A DNA stretch of 64,000 nucleotides, taken from the NCBI RefSeq assembly GCF_022482905.1, contig NZ_JAKVOI010000001.1:1427958-1491957 (forward strand), given 5' to 3'. Positions within the stretch are counted from its first letter, which is position 1. Each line of letters opens with the position of its first letter. The notes beneath the pieces are model-generated. The model was given only the letters and a program-made list of their open reading frames with translations, searched no databases and had not been told where the DNA came from. The position numbers and the translations under genes are program-made. The stretch is from Clostridium sp. (GTDB lineage: Bacteria; Bacillota; Clostridia; Clostridiales; Clostridiaceae). Below, in pieces: positions 41,939-59,971 of this stretch.

Positions 41939-41986
41939 ATTATATAGTACTATTTAAATATTAAATAAAATTTATATGCAGGTTAA
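41939..41986 (-). promoter_or_regulatory. Candidate PhoP box and -10 of the ugp operon
   Basis: On the - strand the pentamers TTAAC, ATAAA and TTAAT (complements of 41982-41986, 41971-41975 and 41960-41964) are spaced exactly 11 bp. They are followed after 15 bp by TATAAT (complement of 41939-41944). No -35 hexamer is evident, as expected for an activator-dependent promoter. Confidence 0.6.
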
Positions 41987-42011
41987 ATAAAATTTTACAT
42001 AGTACTTTTAT

Positions 42012-46395: not shown

Positions 46396-46452
46396 AGTAT
46401 ATTATTCCACAAAAGTTAAGGTATTATTATTCTAATGTTAAATAAAATTAAC
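46396..46452 (-). promoter_or_regulatory. Candidate PhoP box and -10 of the pst operon
   Basis: On the - strand TTAAC, ATAAT and TTAAC (complements of 46437-46441, 46426-46430 and 46415-46419) are exactly 11 bp apart, with a further TTAAT ten bases upstream (46447-46451). TATACT (complement of 46396-46401) follows after 13 bp. No terminator is visible between phoR and this promoter, so some readthrough from phoPR is possible. Confidence 0.65.
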
Positions 46453-46468
46453 ACTAATATTTCAATAA

Positions 46469-48184
46469 TCAAGAACCCTCTTCAATTGGTATTCTAACTA
46501 TGAATTTACTTCCTTTTCCAATTTCACTCTCTACTTTTATACTACCGGCGAATCCCATAACTATATGTTTTACTATGGCAAGTCCCAGACCTGTTCCACC
46601 TTGGCTTCTGGATCTGGCCTTATCCACCCTGTAAAACCTTTCAAACAATCTTTCCTGATGTTCCTTTGATATGCCCACACCGTTGTCTTCAACCTCTATT
46701 ACACAAACTTCATCTTCAGAGCTTGCTGTTATTTTTACCTGTCCACCATTATCTGAATATTTTATTGCATTATCTACCAGATTTATCATCATCTGCTTGA
46801 ACTTATCTTTGTTGCCATAGATATAAAGTGATTTTGAAAACTCTGTAATTATCTTTATGTTTTTCTTTCTGGCTGCAGTATCTACAAGATAACATACACT
46901 CTTTATCTCAGAAACAACATCAATCTTCTCTACAATTCTATCTCTATTATTCTCTATATGTGAAAGAGTAAGAGTATCATCTATAAGTCTGGTAAGTCTA
47001 TCCGCCTCATCATTTATTATATCTATAAACTTGTTCTTATTTTCCGTATCATCCACATACCTCAAAGTTTCTGAAAATCCCTTTATAGAAGTAAGGGGCG
47101 TCTTCAACTCATGAGAAACATTAGCTACAAATTCCGACCTCATGTTCTCAAGTTTCTTTATGTCTGTTATATCCTGAACTACAGCCACTGTTCCAATTTT
47201 ATTTCTTGAATTATTTATTATATCCGCAGTCTTTATCCTTAAATTTCTTTCTCTTGGCCATATAATTTTTATCTCACGGTACTTGTTGTCATCATTTTTA
47301 AATACATTCTCCAGTTCAAAATCCCTTATGCTGTCCATTAAATTTCTGCCTATTATCTCTGAATTTATGCCAAAGATCTCTTCTGCATATGGATTTATCA
47401 TTATTATCCTGTAATTTGTATCTATGGCTATAACTCCACTATCCATACTTTTAAGTATGGCTTCCAGTTTGTTGTTCTGGTTTATGGAATCATTCAGTGT
47501 GGACTGCAGCCTTTCAGCCATGTTGTTAAAAGTATCCGCAAGCTTGCCAATTTCATCTTTTCTGTCTATCTTCACCCTTCTGTCTAAATTTCCATCTGCC
47601 ATACTTCTTGTTATCTCCTGAAGTTTTTTGACAGGTGCAACTAGCGAATGTGACAATCGCGTTATAAAAATTGAAGACAGGAGTATAGACAGTATCATTA
47701 CAAGAATATAATACTTATAATATGTCATTTCCAACCCCTTTATCATCTGCATGGTCATGGCACTTCTGACTATGTCTCCATCCCCTGTCATAGTGGCAAA
47801 ATAAAGGGTTTTCTTGTTTGTAGTAGCACTTACTCTCACATCATAACCTGTCCCATACTTTCTAGCATCTTCTATTTCTTTCCTGCTATTATGATTCTCG
47901 AGTTTTTTCCCATATTCCTCGGAATCACTTATTACATCCCCCTTTTTATCTATATATGTTCCCCTTAAAGTTGTATCTTTAAAATAGTTTTTAAAAATAG
48001 CACCTTTATTATTTTTATTGTCAGTTTTTCTCATGGCGTTTATTACCATTTGGTTGTTTATTTTTAAAGTCTGCTTCATATTCTGTATATATTCTTGATT
48101 CTCAATAGTCATAAATAAAACAGTCATAGTTATTAAACTGAGCATAAGTATGCCCAGCATTGACTTCATTAACTTTTTTTTCAT
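46469..48184 (-). CDS. phoR: Phosphate-regulon sensor histidine kinase PhoR
   Basis: Membrane kinase that phosphorylates PhoP during phosphate limitation. The 571 residues show a membrane segment (about 5-27), an extracellular sensor (about 28-153), a second segment (155-177), HAMP (178-230), PAS (about 240-335), HisKA with the phospho-acceptor His in VSHELKTPLTS near 358, and a HATPase domain with GQV, DNGVGI and GTGLGLAI. It starts ten bases after phoP ends. Confidence 0.93.
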   Translation of the reverse strand: MKKKLMKSMLGILMLSLITMTVLFMTIENQEYIQNMKQTLKINNQMVINAMRKTDNKNNKGAIFKNYFKDTTLRGTYIDKKGDVISDSEEYGKKLENHNSRKEIEDARKYGTGYDVRVSATTNKKTLYFATMTGDGDIVRSAMTMQMIKGLEMTYYKYYILVMILSILLSSIFITRLSHSLVAPVKKLQEITRSMADGNLDRRVKIDRKDEIGKLADTFNNMAERLQSTLNDSINQNNKLEAILKSMDSGVIAIDTNYRIIMINPYAEEIFGINSEIIGRNLMDSIRDFELENVFKNDDNKYREIKIIWPRERNLRIKTADIINNSRNKIGTVAVVQDITDIKKLENMRSEFVANVSHELKTPLTSIKGFSETLRYVDDTENKNKFIDIINDEADRLTRLIDDTLTLSHIENNRDRIVEKIDVVSEIKSVCYLVDTAARKKNIKIITEFSKSLYIYGNKDKFKQMMINLVDNAIKYSDNGGQVKITASSEDEVCVIEVEDNGVGISKEHQERLFERFYRVDKARSRSQGGTGLGLAIVKHIVMGFAGSIKVESEIGKGSKFIVRIPIEEGS

Positions 48185-48194
48185 AATATTATCA

Positions 48195-48890
48195 CTACTC
48201 TCCAGAATTAAATCTATATCCTATTCCACGAATAGTTTCAATAAATCTAGGTTTCTTGTCATCTTCTTCAATTTTCTGTCTCAAATGCCTTATATGCACA
48301 TCAACTGTTCTAGTTTCGCCTATATACTCATATCCCCAAACCCTGTCAAGAAGACAATCTCGTGTGACAACTCTCCCCTTGTTCTTTACAAGTATTTGCA
48401 GGAGTTCAAATTCCTTTAAAGTAAGTTCCACCTTCTTATCACTTCTTAAAATTTCATGCTTGTCAAAATTAATCTTTAAATCCCCAAACACATAGTAATT
48501 GTTATTATCATTGACATTTGTTCTTCTCAGAAGTGCCTTTACTCTCGCCACAAGCTCTCTTACAGAAAATGGCTTTGTAATATAATCATCCGCCCCAAGT
48601 TCCAATCCAAGCACCTTGTCAAATTCCTCACCCTTTGCAGTTATCATTATAATTGGAATTGATGATATTGAACTATCTTTTCTTATCTCCTTGCATACAT
48701 CATAACCATCCATTTCAGGCAGCATAACATCCAGCAATATCAGTTTAGGTCTTTCATCCCTGACCTTTTTTATAGCATCCAGCCCATCAGTTGAGGTTAT
48801 AACCTTATAGCCACTTTTTTCAAGATTAAACTTGATTAACTCACATATGTGTTCCTCGTCATCAACTACTAAAATTTTTTCTTCCGACAT
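48195..48890 (-). CDS. phoP: Phosphate-regulon response regulator PhoP
   Basis: OmpR-family regulator. The 231 residues contain a receiver domain (about 1-118; phospho-acceptor Asp in LILLDVMLPEMDG) and a winged-helix DNA-binding domain (about 132-230). The ATG at 48890 follows GGAGG. Assignment to phosphate rests on the adjacent pst operon and PhoR. It is the natural candidate for reading the 11-bp-spaced TTAAC repeats in this window. Confidence 0.93.
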   Translation of the reverse strand: MSEEKILVVDDEEHICELIKFNLEKSGYKVITSTDGLDAIKKVRDERPKLILLDVMLPEMDGYDVCKEIRKDSSISSIPIIMITAKGEEFDKVLGLELGADDYITKPFSVRELVARVKALLRRTNVNDNNNYYVFGDLKINFDKHEILRSDKKVELTLKEFELLQILVKNKGRVVTRDCLLDRVWGYEYIGETRTVDVHIRHLRQKIEEDDKKPRFIETIRGIGYRFNSGE

Positions 48891-48938
48891 AATTGCCTCC
48901 ATTTATATTAATTTATAAATTAGTTCTATACATATAGG

Positions 48939-54033: not shown

Positions 54034-54090
54034 ATTATATTAACAACTTTCATATTTCTATCTGTTATATTCATGTAAAGTCTATGTAAA
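54034..54090 (-). promoter_or_regulatory. Candidate PhoP box and -10 of the secreted phosphatase gene
   Basis: On the - strand TTTACAT, TTTACAT and ATAACAG (complements of 54084-54090, 54073-54079 and 54062-54068) are exactly 11 bp apart. TATAAT (complement of 54034-54039) lies 22 bp further on. This matches the TT(A/T)ACA every-11-bp layout of PhoP-activated promoters. Confidence 0.65.
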
Positions 54091-54110
54091 ATAATAATAA
54101 CATTTCATAT

Positions 54111-54214: not shown

Positions 54215-55378
54215 ATGATTAAATCTTCAAAAACATTTCAAGTATTAATTTTTTCAGCAGCCGTAATATTATTCGGTATTTTTTTATACCATTTTAACAT
54301 GAGCCATCCCGTAACATATAATAAACAAAATGGGAAATCCTATATAAAATATGAAAAAGCTCAGGTTATATCCGTAAAAAACAATTCTCTAAAACAATTC
54401 ACACAATCAAAAGACATATATTTTGGGACTCAGAAAGTGCAAATTAAAATTCTTTCGGGGGAATACAAAGGAGATGTAGAAAACGTAACAAATTATTTAA
54501 GTGATACCCATAACGTATACCTAAAATCTGGAATGAAAGTAATTGTGGAAATTTCTACGGCTAATTCCGCCTCACATGGCATAACGATATACAATTACTA
54601 TAGAGCCCCTGTTCAATATGCATTCATTTTTATTTTTTTCACTTCTTTATGTATAATAGGCGGGAAAAAAGGCTTCAGATCTGTAATTGGGCTTGTATTT
54701 ACACTGTCATGTATCATATTTTTGTTTGTTCCAATGTTATACAGAGGATATTCACCAATTATGGCTTCAATTCTAATAATAGTTATAACAAGCTGTGTAA
54801 CATTGTTTTTGTTAAATAACTGGAGTCCAAAGACTTTGTCTGCCATACTTGGTACCATATCCGGAGTTGTTATCGCAGGAATAATTGAACTGGTCTCTGG
54901 CCACTTGGCTCATCTGACAGGGTTTAACTTTGCCGATGTAGAAACTTTGAACATGATTTCAAATGTATCAGGCATGAAAGTACACGAATTATTAACTGCC
55001 GGGATTTTAATAGCATCTCTTGGAGCAGTAATGGATCTCAGCATATCAATAGCCTCTTCTATACAAGAAATATATATATCAAATCCTAATATGAGCAAAA
55101 AAGAACTTTTCAAATCCGGAATGAATGTGGGAGGAGACATGATGGGCACAATGGCAAATACATTGATTCTAGCATTTGCAGGAGCATCACTTACCATGAT
55201 TATAATAATTTATTCCTACAATGTAAGCTATAATCAGCTTATTAACATGGATATGGTAAATTTAGAGATAATTCAAGGACTAACCGGAAGCATGGCGATA
55301 ATTTTTACAGTTCCCATTGTATCATTTATTTCATCAGAAATTATTACACGATTTTTGGGAAAATCCGATCAATCTTGA
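54215..55378 (+). CDS. YibE/F family multi-pass membrane protein
   Basis: The 387 residues have an N-terminal membrane anchor (about 5-27), an extracytoplasmic part to about 130, then about seven hydrophobic segments typical of YibE/F proteins, with conserved [14 protein letters not shown] and [20 protein letters not shown]. The start at 54215 follows GGAGG. Function is unknown. The gene is divergent from the phosphatase and its end overlaps the convergent chemoreceptor gene by 10 bases. Confidence 0.88.
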
Positions 55379-57501
55379 ACTTTAAATTGCTCGACAATGT
55401 CGATGAGTTTCTTTGCTTCATCGGCATTTTGGGCAGTTTTTAAAGATATATCCGAATTTTTTTCTTCTATTGAACTCATACTGCCGGATATGTTTATTAC
55501 TGCTTCAGTACATTTGCCTACAGAGTCCGTAATATTACTGATTATACTTGAAAATTCCTGCTGGGACAAATTTATATCATCTGTAAGATTACAAAATTTT
55601 TTTATAACCAATTCAATCTTTATACCTTCATCCTGATATTCTTTGCTCATTTCAATTATTTTTGAATAGTCCTTCATTACATTTTCCTCTATAAGCTGAA
55701 GTATATTTTTTGAAGAATCTATCAGTTCTCCCACCGCCGTCATTATATCCTTTATATTTACCTGTATATCATCTGCCATGCTCGAAGACTGGTCTGCAAG
55801 CTTTTTTACCTCCCCTGCAACTATCATAAATGCCCTTCCAGACTCTCCCGCCCTTGCAGCTTCGATATGTGCGTTTAAAGCAAGTATATTTGTCTTTTTT
55901 GAGACATTTCTAATTTCATTCAACATTTTAGATATATTGTTCACAACCTTTATAGTTTCCAGAGAACTTTTAAGTTTTTTACTCGATTCTGCATAACAGA
56001 TTTTCAAATCTCCTCTTGATTTTTCTATATTGTCTTTTATATAGACAGCCTTTTTATTCATTTCATCAGATAAACTCAATCCGGCACTAGCCTCATCAAC
56101 AGTCTTCTCCACCATATGTTTGACTAGATCTACTTTTTTACCTGCATTTTCAATAGCTGACAGTGTTTCTTCCATATTCGTCGTTATTTCATTGGACATA
56201 CTTGATACAGTTTCAATATTGGCCTGTGATTCTTGGAACATCTTATTCACGTAGTTGCTGGATTCCAGAGCAGTGCTGCTCTCTTTTTTAGCATATTTCA
56301 TCATATTGCCTATATTTTCCAACGCGGAATTGAGGTCACCTACCGTTTGACCAAATTCATCCCTGCTTTTTATATCTATTTTATATTCCAAATTAAATCC
56401 TGACAGTTCTTCAGCATATTTTCTAATTTTAACCAGAGGCTTTTTTATTTGTCCAGCTATAATTATGCCAATAAAAATTCCTATCAATATAAATATTATA
56501 GTAGCAGCTATCATCTTGTATTTAAGTATGTTTACAGACGCAAATATTTCCTCTTTAGCTATAGTAACTCCCAAATACCAGTTCATTTCCGGTATAGGAG
56601 CATAAGCCATAAGCATATATTTTCCATCTTCTTTATAATATCCGGAACCACTTTTACCCTGTATCATCTTTTTTTCAATATTTGATAGTTCTACAAGAGA
56701 TTTATCCTTTTCTGCATTTTTTATAGTATTATCTTTATTTAAAACCAGGGTCAAATTTTTATGTATTACCTTATTTCCTTTTTTATCGATTATAAAGCAA
56801 TACCCACTTGCACCAACCTTCATCTTCTGAACAAGTTTATTCAATTCTTCTGTACTTATATTTGAAAACAGAACTCCTACGACTTTATTACTATCATTTT
56901 TTATAGGAACCGCCACTGCTATTATCTGATCCCCATTAACATTAAAATATGGTCCATCAATTTTGGGTTTTCCCTGCAGCGCAGTTTTAAGATAATCCGA
57001 ATCGCTGCTATTCAAATCTATATTTGTTTTACCGCCGGTTTGCATATAAGTTAATCCTTTTAGATCCATTACATTAAGACTTAAATAATTTAATTCTTCA
57101 GCTCTCCTGGCTAAAACTGGAATTTGACTTTCAGGAGTCATTGATTTTATTTCAGGTCTGTTGGCTATTTCAACCATGGCTTTAATCTGCTGTTGCAGCA
57201 TTGAATTTATTAATTTAGATGAATCAACAGCTTTGTCTTGAAGAGACTGCTTTATATTTTGTTCCATAGCTGCATAAGAATTGCTATAAGATATTACTCC
57301 AATAACTCCACAAATAACTATTACCAGTAAGCCAATTTGTGCAATTATTTTTGTCCCCACACTATTCAAGATTGATAAACTAGGTAAATTTATTCTTTTT
57401 GCTATTCTTATTCTTCCCTCTATTCCTCTTAGCTTGGCAAATATTCTTTTTTTCATACCGTCAAACGTATGCAAAAACTCAAAGTTGAACTTTTTTTTCA
57501 T
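55369..57501 (-). CDS. Methyl-accepting chemotaxis protein
   Basis: The 710-residue chemoreceptor has a membrane segment at about 50-71, an extracellular double-Cache-like ligand domain (about 80-325, with [18 protein letters not shown]), a second segment near 328-350, HAMP (351-403) and a long coiled-coil signalling domain whose tip, including [16 protein letters not shown], lies near 540-575. A 49-residue basic N-terminal extension precedes the first membrane segment, which is unusual. It is 20 bases downstream of the EAL-CBS-GGDEF gene, so likely co-transcribed. Ligand unknown. Confidence 0.92.
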
Positions 57502-57521: not shown

Positions 57522-59297
57522 TTAATTATAACACAAGCTGTCATGATTAATATTTAAGACAACATAACTGCTATTTTTGTTCTTTTTTGCTTTCTTCTTA
57601 ATCTTGCTCATATACACTCCAATTTCATCAATGTCTTTAAATCTACTGAAATTACCATACATACATCCTAGTGCTATGGACGTAAGTGGGAAAATATCTT
57701 TGTTGCCCTTTCGATCGAAGGATTCAATATACCCGTTGTTTTTATCTTTTTCATTAAAAAAATCCAATATTTTTAAATCAAACTCCGAAATTATATTTTT
57801 GCATAACTCATGACATATCTCACCCTGATTTTCTATTATACATACAAAATCATCCCCTCCGATATGTCCTACAAAACTATTATATATGCAAAACTTCTTA
57901 ATCTGTTCTTCTATAAGCCTGGCCGTAAATTTTAATACTTTATCTCCATTTTCAAAACCATAGGTATCATTATATGTTTTAAAGTTATTCAAATCTGCAT
58001 AGATTAAAAAAAAATTACTGTTGCAATTTATCATATTATCAATTGTCTTATTTATGATCTCATTTCCCGGTAGACCTGTTAACGGGTTGAGATTCTTGGC
58101 ATGATTTTTTTCAAACTCTATAGTATATTCAAGCAAGTTCTTAATTGTTACAATTCCATAGTATTTATTTTTCTTTGTAACTATAACATAATCATATATT
58201 TTTTTAGGATCTCTTTCCATTGCAACTCTTGACACATCACTTATATCAGTATAGTAATCAACTATAAGCGGTGAACAATCCATAATTAGTGATACCGGCC
58301 GCCTTAAAAAAACTGAAAGTCCGTATTGGGTAGCAAGTACATAATCAAGATTATGTTGCATAATCAGACCCACTGGATAACCATTTTTTTCAATACATGC
58401 CCCTGTAACACCTGAACTATCAAAAAACTTTTTCATGTCCCTGCCAGTAGCACTTAATGGAAATGCAGGATTTCTCTGTACAATATTTCCCACATAGTTC
58501 TTATCAAATTTATTGTTTTCTATCTTATTGTATTTGATTATTTTTTCTTTTACACTTTCAGAAATATCAAGGAATGTACCCGATGGTCTCTGAAGGAAAT
58601 AACCCTGGCCTGCAGTAATTCCTATACTTATAAGTTTCAGGAGTTCACTTTCGGTTTCAATTCCTTCTGCAATAACTTTCATATTCGTAGAATTGGCAAA
58701 TGATAAAAATGTCTTTACAAGTTCCTGCTTGAATGCATCTTTATCTATGTCTTTTATAAACGATATGTCAATTTTAATATAATGCGGCTTTGTCTCCATC
58801 AAAGTTTTAAGTCCTGAATAGCCTGTTCCCATATCGTCAATTGCAATTTTATAGCCTTGATTTACATAATTGTCCAGAGCCGTCTTGAAACTTTTATAAT
58901 CTTCTATAGCTGTTTTTTCCGTTATTTCAAAGATAATTGAATCCGGACACATATTGTTGTCTTTTAAAAAATCTTTGGTAAATCCACTTCTAAATCTTTC
59001 ATCTTTAAATATTTTAGGATCTACATTTATAAATAAAAACTTGTTTTTATCTATAATATTTGCCTTTTCAATAGCTTTAAGCCTGCACAGCAACTCAAGT
59101 TCCCATATTCTTCCGAAGCATTCAGCTGCTGAAAAAAGTTTTTCAGGCGAATGCAGTGGAGAGTTCTTCGGTCCTCTACTCAATGCCTCATATCCTATAA
59201 TTGATGCATCCTTAAGGGATACAATAGGTTGAAATACTGTATTAATGCTTTTATTATCCAGTATTTTTTCCAATTCATATTTATCACATAGATTCAT
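57522..59297 (-). CDS. EAL-CBS-GGDEF cyclic-di-GMP protein
   Basis: The 591-residue cytoplasmic protein has an EAL phosphodiesterase domain (about 18-250), a pair of CBS domains (about 265-395) and a GGDEF domain (about 415-565). EAL residues appear intact: [41 protein letters not shown] and GQGYFLQRP. The cyclase motif is GGDDF near 480, not consensus, so the cyclase may be weak or regulatory. CBS domains often bind adenine nucleotides. The start at 59297 follows GAGGTG. A PhoP-like box lies upstream and a chemoreceptor gene downstream. Confidence 0.92.
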
Positions 59298-59329
59298 CTG
59301 ATTCACCTCATATACCGACATCTGAAGAA

Positions 59330-59382
59330 AGTATACAATTGTTATGTTAAATACATAATAATTATCTGTTAAATTCAGTTAA
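59330..59382 (-). promoter_or_regulatory. Candidate PhoP box and -10 of the EAL-CBS-GGDEF/chemoreceptor operon
   Basis: On the - strand TTAAC, TTAAC, TTATT and TTAAC (complements of 59378-59382, 59368-59372, 59357-59361 and 59346-59350) have spacings of 10, 11 and 11 bp, the same as at pstS. TATACT (complement of 59330-59335) follows after 10 bp; pstS also has TATACT. Confidence 0.6.
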
Positions 59383-59487: not shown

Positions 59488-59524
59488 AAAAAGTAGATGA
59501 CATATTATATATCATCTACTTTTT
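59488..59524 (-). terminator. Intrinsic terminator overlapping the end of nrdR
   Basis: A perfect 13-bp stem (59488-59500 with 59512-59524) and 11-base loop end in a T run on the - strand. The arm includes the last codons and stop of nrdR. Confidence 0.8.
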
Positions 59525-59971
59525 TGAAATAAGATTTTTAATTTCTTCCATAAATGTATTTATATCTTTAAACTGTCTATATACTGATGCAAATCTCACA
59601 TAGGAAACCTCATCAACATTCTTAAGTCTTTTCATAACCATTTCACCTATATCAGAAGAATTTATTTCAGTTATCATTTTATTATTTATACTTTTTTCAA
59701 TATCATCTACTATACCTTCAAGCTGTTGTCTGGAAACAGGTCTTTTCTGACAAGCTTTTATAAGTCCATTCAATATTTTATTTCTGTCAAAATATTCCCT
59801 GCCCATATTTTTCTTTATAACCAGTATCGGAATATCCTCAATTTTTTCATAAGTAGTATATCTTTTTTTACAATTGAGACATTCTCTTCTCCTTCTGATA
59901 GCTTTATTATCCTCCGTAGATCTTGAATCAATGACCTTGCTTTCCGGATATCCACAATAAGGGCATTTCAT
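59516..59971 (-). CDS. nrdR: Transcriptional repressor NrdR
   Basis: Represses ribonucleotide reductase genes in response to dATP/ATP. The 151 residues have a zinc ribbon (C3, C6, C31, C34) and an ATP-cone domain (about 49-139). Length is standard. It follows ymxH by 108 bases; no ribonucleotide reductase gene is in the window. Confidence 0.96.

Follow-up and report, generated by a model that had tools for sequence, protein, structure and literature searches.

A PhoP-type box precedes the gene for a predicted cyclic-di-GMP phosphodiesterase in Clostridiaceae

The DNA analysed here (the window) is a stretch of 64,000 nucleotides from the 3.57-Mb single-contig genome of a clostridial species (NZ_JAKVOI010000001.1, positions 1,427,958 to 1,491,957), with a G+C content of 34.9% within the window. 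It contains an island composed of ugp, pstSCAB-phoU, a PnpS/PhoR kinase gene, phoP, pgeF, a phosphatase gene, a divergent yibE/F gene, a chemoreceptor gene and the gene for an EAL-CBS-GGDEF protein (below, the EAL gene). The kinase (46469..48184, minus strand) matches the NCBIfam PnpS profile at 410.9 bits (cut-off 400), and PhoP (48195..48902, minus strand) is an OmpR/PhoB-type response regulator by Pfam. The island phosphatase carries cell-wall-binding domains. The chemoreceptor (55369..57501, minus strand) has dCache, HAMP and MCP signal domains by Pfam; Clostridiaceae bacterium BL-3 (below, BL-3) and C. luticellarii share both this domain set and the gene order. The EAL gene (57522..59321, minus strand; 599 residues counted from 59321) encodes a predicted cyclic-di-GMP (c-di-GMP) phosphodiesterase, as judged from Pfam domains and catalytic residues. 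Next along, upstream of the EAL gene, lies nrdR, which is followed at 59491-59525 by an inverted repeat (AAGTAGATGA...TCATCTACTT) and a T run. By eye, this repeat looks like a terminator parting nrdR from the EAL promoter; a terminator scan with loops of up to 8 did not list it.

The EAL gene is preceded by four phased pentamers and a −10 element. Specifically, the site reads TTAAC-10-TTAAC-11-TTATT-11-TTAAC-15-TATACT (start to start) on the minus strand from 59382 to 59330, with pentamers starting at 0, 10, 21 and 32, TATACT starting at 47, and 10 bp from the last pentamer to TATACT. Box 1 (TTAAC, 59378..59382), also found by matrix scan, is followed after 10 bp by box 2 (TTAAC, 59368..59372), the same first step as in pstS. 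Box 3 (59357..59361) is the weakest box; where the window species has TTATT, BL-3 and C. luticellarii have TTATC. Box 4 (TTAAC, 59346..59350) starts 15 bp before the −10 element (59330..59335). The 10-11-11 spacing and the 10-bp distance to TATACT described in an earlier note on this DNA are read directly from the sequence, with TTATT in third place and TTAAC in the other three. A PhoP-type Pho box of Gram-positive bacteria consists of three to four TTAAC-type pentamers with a period of 10–11 bp on the transcription strand, and the site has this layout, with three TTAAC and one TTATT in phase. The −10 element stands at +15, as in pstS and ugpA. There is no −35 element, the best candidate at 16–18 bp having 2/6 matches to TTGACA. 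The pstS and ugpA promoters of the window also lack a −35 element (2–3/6 matches), as expected where an activator takes its place. The −10 element ends 8 nt ahead of 59321, which makes the start of the open reading frame at that position doubtful; a probable ribosome-binding site, GAGGTG (59304..59309, minus strand), followed by ATG at 59297, fits better and probably marks the real start.

The same layout is found in front of pstS and ugpA. The two reference sites of the window, both on the minus strand and both identified by template match and matrix, lie before pstS (46399..46451, with TAATAT as the in-register −10) and ugpA (41944..41996, first box degenerate). Using a template of 26 letters in the 0/10/21/32/47 layout, and taking the best match per upstream region, we found this layout in all 13 pstS promoters of the genus (23–26 of 26 letters), each with TATTAT or TAATAT in the −10 register, and in all six close ugpA genes (21–23 of 26 letters), which likewise have a TATTAT-like −10 at 47 and two of which have a degenerate first box. 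In other genera, a TTAAC pair at 22 bp stands upstream of 20/20 pstS matches (17 genomes, eight genera; 18 of the 20 were also read). The template layout equals that of the EAL site, which bears out the proposed likeness to pstS. Pentamer spacing agrees between the two ends of the island, as claimed; the −10 does not, because the TATACT of pstS lies 3 bp further on and TAATAT occupies the register. A further phased array, TTATT-10-TTTAC-11-TTTAC-11-ATAAC, was found by matrix scan before the secreted phosphatase gene (54064..54100, minus strand) and has no clear −10 in register. In BL-3, C. luticellarii and C. tyrobutyricum, repeats that by eye look similar precede the phosphatase gene.

A pooled pentamer matrix combined with a −10 matrix was trained on the 13 pstS and six ugpA sites, the window's own two included. 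In the window, the EAL site ranks third at 21.1 bits, behind pstS (29.0 bits) and ugpA (23.7 bits), both of which are in the training set. The next site, shifted readings aside, scores 16.2 bits and overlaps the EAL site on the opposite strand. In a sample of 40 spaced 20-kb stretches (800 kb, 22% of the genome, window left out), 1 of 1,594,880 positions reached 21.1 bits, consistent with the earlier suggestion that four phased pentamers next to a −10 are less likely than single pentamers to arise by chance. That one position (L132:8570, minus strand, 24.4 bits) is intergenic, and the next open reading frame of at least 100 aa on its strand is 4.2 kb off. At the sample rate, some four to five equally good positions would be expected genome-wide. 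Compared with its own dinucleotide shuffles, the EAL site has p = 0.003, the floor for 300 shuffles. Control promoters were taken from the window genome only, 360 with 250-nt and 358 with 260-nt upstreams; with the pooled matrix, 0/360 reach at least 20.3 bits and 8/360 at least 17.4 bits. The genome has ten GGDEF matches including the EAL gene, and seven of the other genes have no comparable site (best 14.9 bits).

The weight-matrix check gave a mixed result: the pooled box matrix recovers the site, and two full-length profile models do not. R1 (18 pstS and ugpA sites, 55 positions) lists the EAL site neither genome-wide, where 150 of 6,703 candidates were scored, nor in the window. R2 (15 Pho-like sites of several gene classes, EAL left out, 45 positions) does not list it among the 150 of 6,679 candidates scored genome-wide and gives it 6.9 bits in the window (E 3.3). 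Both models weight pst-like spacers and expect A at place 4 of box 3, where the site has T, which likely accounts for the miss. We retained the pooled box matrix, in which spacers play no part. Among the 150 candidates scored with each model, R1 matches pstS, ugpA, a PilZ gene and a set of small-RNA-like loci, and R2 matches the same plus, weakly, a DedA-like gene. By sequence alone the single site is suggestive; given the four to five equal positions expected genome-wide, it is conservation that makes it convincing.

Within the genus set of 13 genomes, the EAL gene is intact in the window species, BL-3, C. luticellarii, G009, G007, G003, G004 and G011, split over two contigs in G005, and broken in G006 and C. 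tyrobutyricum; no close match was found in G001 and G010. With 21.1 bits for the window species, the orthologue upstreams score 23.0 bits in BL-3, 24.4 in C. luticellarii, 20.3 in G007 and 17.4 in G009. The −10 at +15 is kept in these five species and in G006 and G005, and five of the seven promoters were tested and have only 2–3/6 matches to a −35 element. In G003, G004 and G011 the best-scoring stretch (16.0–17.4 bits) is a different AT-rich run, and a phased TTAAA-10-TTAAC-11-TTTAC with a poor fourth box is present (8.4 bits in G003). Three boxes are kept in G005 (10.6 bits); this score and that of MAG_CA253 (13.5 bits) are within the control range. Where the gene is broken, the promoter box is intact in G006 (17.4 bits), and in C. 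tyrobutyricum, by eye, boxes 1–3 remain and box 4 is lost together with the −10. Comparison of the window species with four relatives shows identity at 15–18 of 20 box positions versus 12–15 of 27 spacer positions, two of the four having been put in register by omitting one spacer base. When whole 250-nt upstreams are aligned, site included, those of G009, G007, G003, G011 and MAG_CA253 do not surpass the best of 60 shuffles; BL-3, C. luticellarii, G005 and C. tyrobutyricum do somewhat better.

The phased repeats extend beyond the genus. Matches to the EAL-CBS-GGDEF protein at E <= 1e-100 occur in 53 of 194 Clostridiaceae genomes and 15 of 46 genera. We collected 31 upstreams: 21 from genes outside the genus (eight genera, 21 of the 43 orthologue-bearing genomes), nine from the genus, and that of MAG_CA253. 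The broken copies of G006 and C. tyrobutyricum were left out, and the split gene of G005 was included through its 5' fragment. The upstreams were grouped, by our own choice of one per close cluster, into 20 lineages. A TTWAC pair 10 or 11 bp apart is present in 24/31 orthologues and 15/20 lineages, compared with 3/358 control promoters (3/145 in the AT-rich subset; Fisher p 1.6e-14 against that subset). With distances of 10, 11, 21, 22, 32 or 33 bp allowed, the counts are 28/31 orthologues and 18/20 lineages, compared with 6/358 controls (4/145 AT-rich); the pair is missing in G005, G015 and G096. Dinucleotide shuffles of the orthologue upstreams give a mean of 0.4 and a maximum of 3 of 20 lineages in 400 rounds. 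TTWAC was picked after the orthologue upstreams had been viewed, so the shuffles and the 358 controls carry more weight than the nominal p value. The phase itself stands out. A distance of 11 occurs in 14 lineages, and no other distance between 4 and 60 occurs in more than four; six off-phase distance pairs occur in 0–3 of 20 lineages, and 10/11 phasing gives the best three-box chain in 19/31 upstreams among seven spacings tried. The 20 upstreams have a median identity of 0.58 and a maximum of 0.67 in global alignment, which we judge to be near background for such AT-rich DNA. The strict pst/ugp matrix gives a moderate result, with 13/31 upstreams beating their own shuffles at p < 0.05, because it penalises TTTAC. 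The conservation check on the site has therefore come out in its favour, with phased repeats before EAL-CBS-GGDEF genes in nine GTDB genera.

The enzyme is most likely a c-di-GMP phosphodiesterase. EAL phosphodiesterases are recognised by an EAL motif together with the metal and catalytic residues E, N, E, E, DD, K, E and Q. Here 30/30 aligned orthologues keep the expected residue at all nine positions (E, N, E, E, D, D, K, E, Q), and the EAL domain aligns with solved EAL enzymes, which together make phosphodiesterase activity likely. One CBS domain is above the Pfam cut-off. Active diguanylate cyclases have a GG(D/E)EF motif, commonly though not universally with an inhibitory RxxD site five residues before it. 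In the GGDEF half, 100 residues match Pfam positions 5–108 of 161, and the motif is GGDDF in 29/30 orthologues and GGDDY in one, with an RxxD site in 0/30. This half may be regulatory or a weak cyclase.

The chemoreceptor gene starts 20 nt after the EAL gene, and 15 nt after it in BL-3 and C. luticellarii, where the phosphatase gene lies directly upstream of the pair. The chemoreceptor is a probable second gene of an EAL operon in these three species, in which the two would be co-transcribed. The shared operon proposed earlier is thus probable for the three and does not extend to the other five of the eight loci counted, which came from seven genomes of the genus and MAG_CA253. There the gene after the EAL gene is a YitT-type protein gene (G009, G007), an opposite-strand M56 peptidase-like gene (G003, G011) or an opposite-strand P-type-ATPase-like gene (MAG_CA253). 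On these grounds we rejected a constant pairing of chemoreceptor and enzyme. Flagellin genes are present in all 13 genomes of the genus, and a motility output is thus possible. A c-di-GMP-I riboswitch was considered as an output and dropped, none having been found in the window genome among 150 scored of 187 candidates; such riboswitches are present in 11/13 genomes of the genus.

Further PhoP-like sites were found elsewhere in the window genome and in its relatives. Third in the whole-genome R1 search (E 9.3e-4) is a site before a PilZ gene (G000:C1:994030-994482) that encodes a single-domain protein of 119 residues (Pfam 28.1 bits, cut-off 22.5). It has a degenerate first box, three good boxes (TTAAC, ATAAC, TTAAT) and TATCAT at +15, and its pooled-matrix score of 16.4 bits is reached by 11/360 control promoters. 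The genome contains four related PilZ genes. Before the second (819904), TTTAC/ATAAC-type repeats recur at 11 bp and are followed by TTTAAT 15 bp on, and its C. luticellarii counterpart shows the same arrangement; the two score 13.9 and 14.7 bits, mostly in the control range (19.0 bits in a shifted C. luticellarii reading); the other two PilZ genes, and relatives in G004 and G009, score 7.6 bits or less. PhoP binding at either PilZ site is a hypothesis built on these repeats.

A family of about nine dispersed short loci without a clear open reading frame was observed outside the window (94384, 309259, 362665, 363678, 366063, 2762925, 3045730 and 3420578, and a partial copy at 2322278); a locus of the family also lies in C. 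tyrobutyricum. Their promoter reads TTAAC-11-TTAAT-11-TTAAC-15-TAAAAT, and their body of about 95 nt contains ATAGTTCCCTAT (6/8 aligned) and a terminator-like AAGCA...TGCTTA plus T run. The family resembles a small RNA that is present in multiple copies and transcribed from a PhoP-type promoter. It is matched in 2/13 genomes of the genus, and an Rfam search of three loci, with E up to 1, found nothing that covers the element. In BL-3, PhoP-type boxes lie before an MGDG-synthase-family gene and a VTT/DedA-family gene (L039:11485, 24.9 bits; L039:12787, 24.3 bits), and in C. luticellarii before a gene like the former (L040:11540, 20.0 bits). The window genome has a weak box before a DedA-like gene (G000:C1:2625681; R2, E 0.31). 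It is plausible that the MGDG-synthase-family and DedA-like genes are phosphate-starvation genes. A PhoP-like site also precedes a gene for a HAD-like protein of 208 residues (G000:C1:2653148; R2, E 0.032; family assigned by eye).

The site is an ordinary promoter-site type in an unexpected, well-conserved place. The computational case for placing the EAL gene in the clostridial Pho regulon is strong, and beyond it we infer a mechanism. On exhaustion of phosphate, the PnpS/PhoR kinase would phosphorylate PhoP, and phosphorylated PhoP would bind the four TTAAC-type pentamers head to tail at their phase of 10–11 bp. Bound PhoP would recruit RNA polymerase to the −10, which has no −35 partner, and the gene so expressed would yield the EAL-CBS-GGDEF protein, a predicted phosphodiesterase. 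A resulting drop in c-di-GMP would favour swimming over surface life, and in three species the same message would probably encode the chemoreceptor. We consider it likely that this is an activating PhoP box through which phosphate starvation controls the predicted phosphodiesterase. On this evidence from sequence comparison, phosphate shortage probably changes swimming or sticking in a large clostridial family.

The alternative that survives best is that another regulator of the OmpR/PhoB family, and not PhoP, acts on the phased repeats. Direct repeats of 11-bp period are common to that family, and the response regulator of the island is best matched by the NCBIfam profile YycF and then by PhoB, with both under cut-off. 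The profile models built on pstS and ugpA miss the site, and box 3 departs from the pst pattern consistently in three species (TTATT, TTATC, TTATC). However, the pentamers, their steps and the −10 distance match pstS and ugpA, and in four species (the window species, BL-3, C. luticellarii and C. tyrobutyricum) the EAL gene has phosphatase and yibE/F genes as neighbours, in the window with phoPR and pst as well. We regard this alternative as unlikely. Less probable still is that PhoP binds but represses, or that ordinary promoters overlap here and use the repeats as −35-like elements. The boxes are overlapped by sigma-70-like pairs whose first hexamers are TTAACT and TTAACA, and a simple scan of 271 bp around the site, both strands included, counts six sigma-70-like pairs compared with 3.2 (sd 1.5) in shuffles. 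Nonetheless, the seven species that keep the −10 at +15, with poor −35 matches in the five tested, argue against it, as does the identity of the layout with that of pstS, which is activated in known Pho systems. That the pentamers are an accident of AT-rich DNA is very improbable, because even with four to five equally good positions expected genome-wide, the phased pair recurs in 15/20 lineages versus 3/358 controls and distance 11 stands out.

Returning to the activating PhoP box, we put forward tentatively a larger picture, in which the Clostridiaceae Pho regulon would have a built-in c-di-GMP branch. PhoP would directly drive the EAL-CBS-GGDEF phosphodiesterase, joined in some species by the chemoreceptor and in the window species by a PilZ receptor and about nine small RNAs, and phosphate starvation would reset motility via signal, receptor and sensor. 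To our knowledge, the inputs that raise or lower c-di-GMP have been identified for the most part in only a few clostridial species. Here phased repeats in nine GTDB genera connect one particular input, phosphate, with one particular enzyme, a link that lends itself to direct testing. Some relatives serve in industrial fermentations run under phosphate limitation, and attachment and motility are of consequence there. No report of a PhoP or phosphate link to c-di-GMP in clostridia was found among open-access titles and the beginnings of abstracts, a search that leaves most subscription journals uncovered.

The individual parts have counterparts in known systems. PhoP-activated promoters of Bacillus subtilis have TTAACA-type direct repeats of 11-bp period that replace the −35, similar to the phased repeats that stand in place of a −35 at the EAL site. 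The targets of B. subtilis PhoP are phosphate-scavenging and cell-wall genes, and we know of no c-di-GMP enzyme among them. In Clostridium acetobutylicum, PhoP-type repeats precede the pst operon of the PhoPR system, as PhoP-type repeats precede the EAL gene here; again, we know of no c-di-GMP target. In Vibrio cholerae, a member of another phylum, PhoB is reportedly a phosphate regulator tied to motility, biofilms and c-di-GMP, to go by the title of Pratt 2009. The closest likeness is with Pseudomonas fluorescens Pf0-1. There, rapA has a Pho box in its promoter to which PhoB binds, and at low phosphate the RapA phosphodiesterase lowers c-di-GMP and cells leave the surface (PMC3032545). Both systems thus have a Pho-box promoter before a c-di-GMP phosphodiesterase, here a predicted one. 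They differ in that P. fluorescens uses a proteobacterial PhoB and a RapA-LapD-LapG output, whereas the clostridial side has a PhoP-type box, an EAL-CBS-GGDEF enzyme and, sometimes, a chemoreceptor as the next gene. If the activating PhoP box is real, a Gram-positive lineage would have coupled c-di-GMP to phosphate starvation through an enzyme and a type of Pho box of its own, a parallel to PhoB-RapA.
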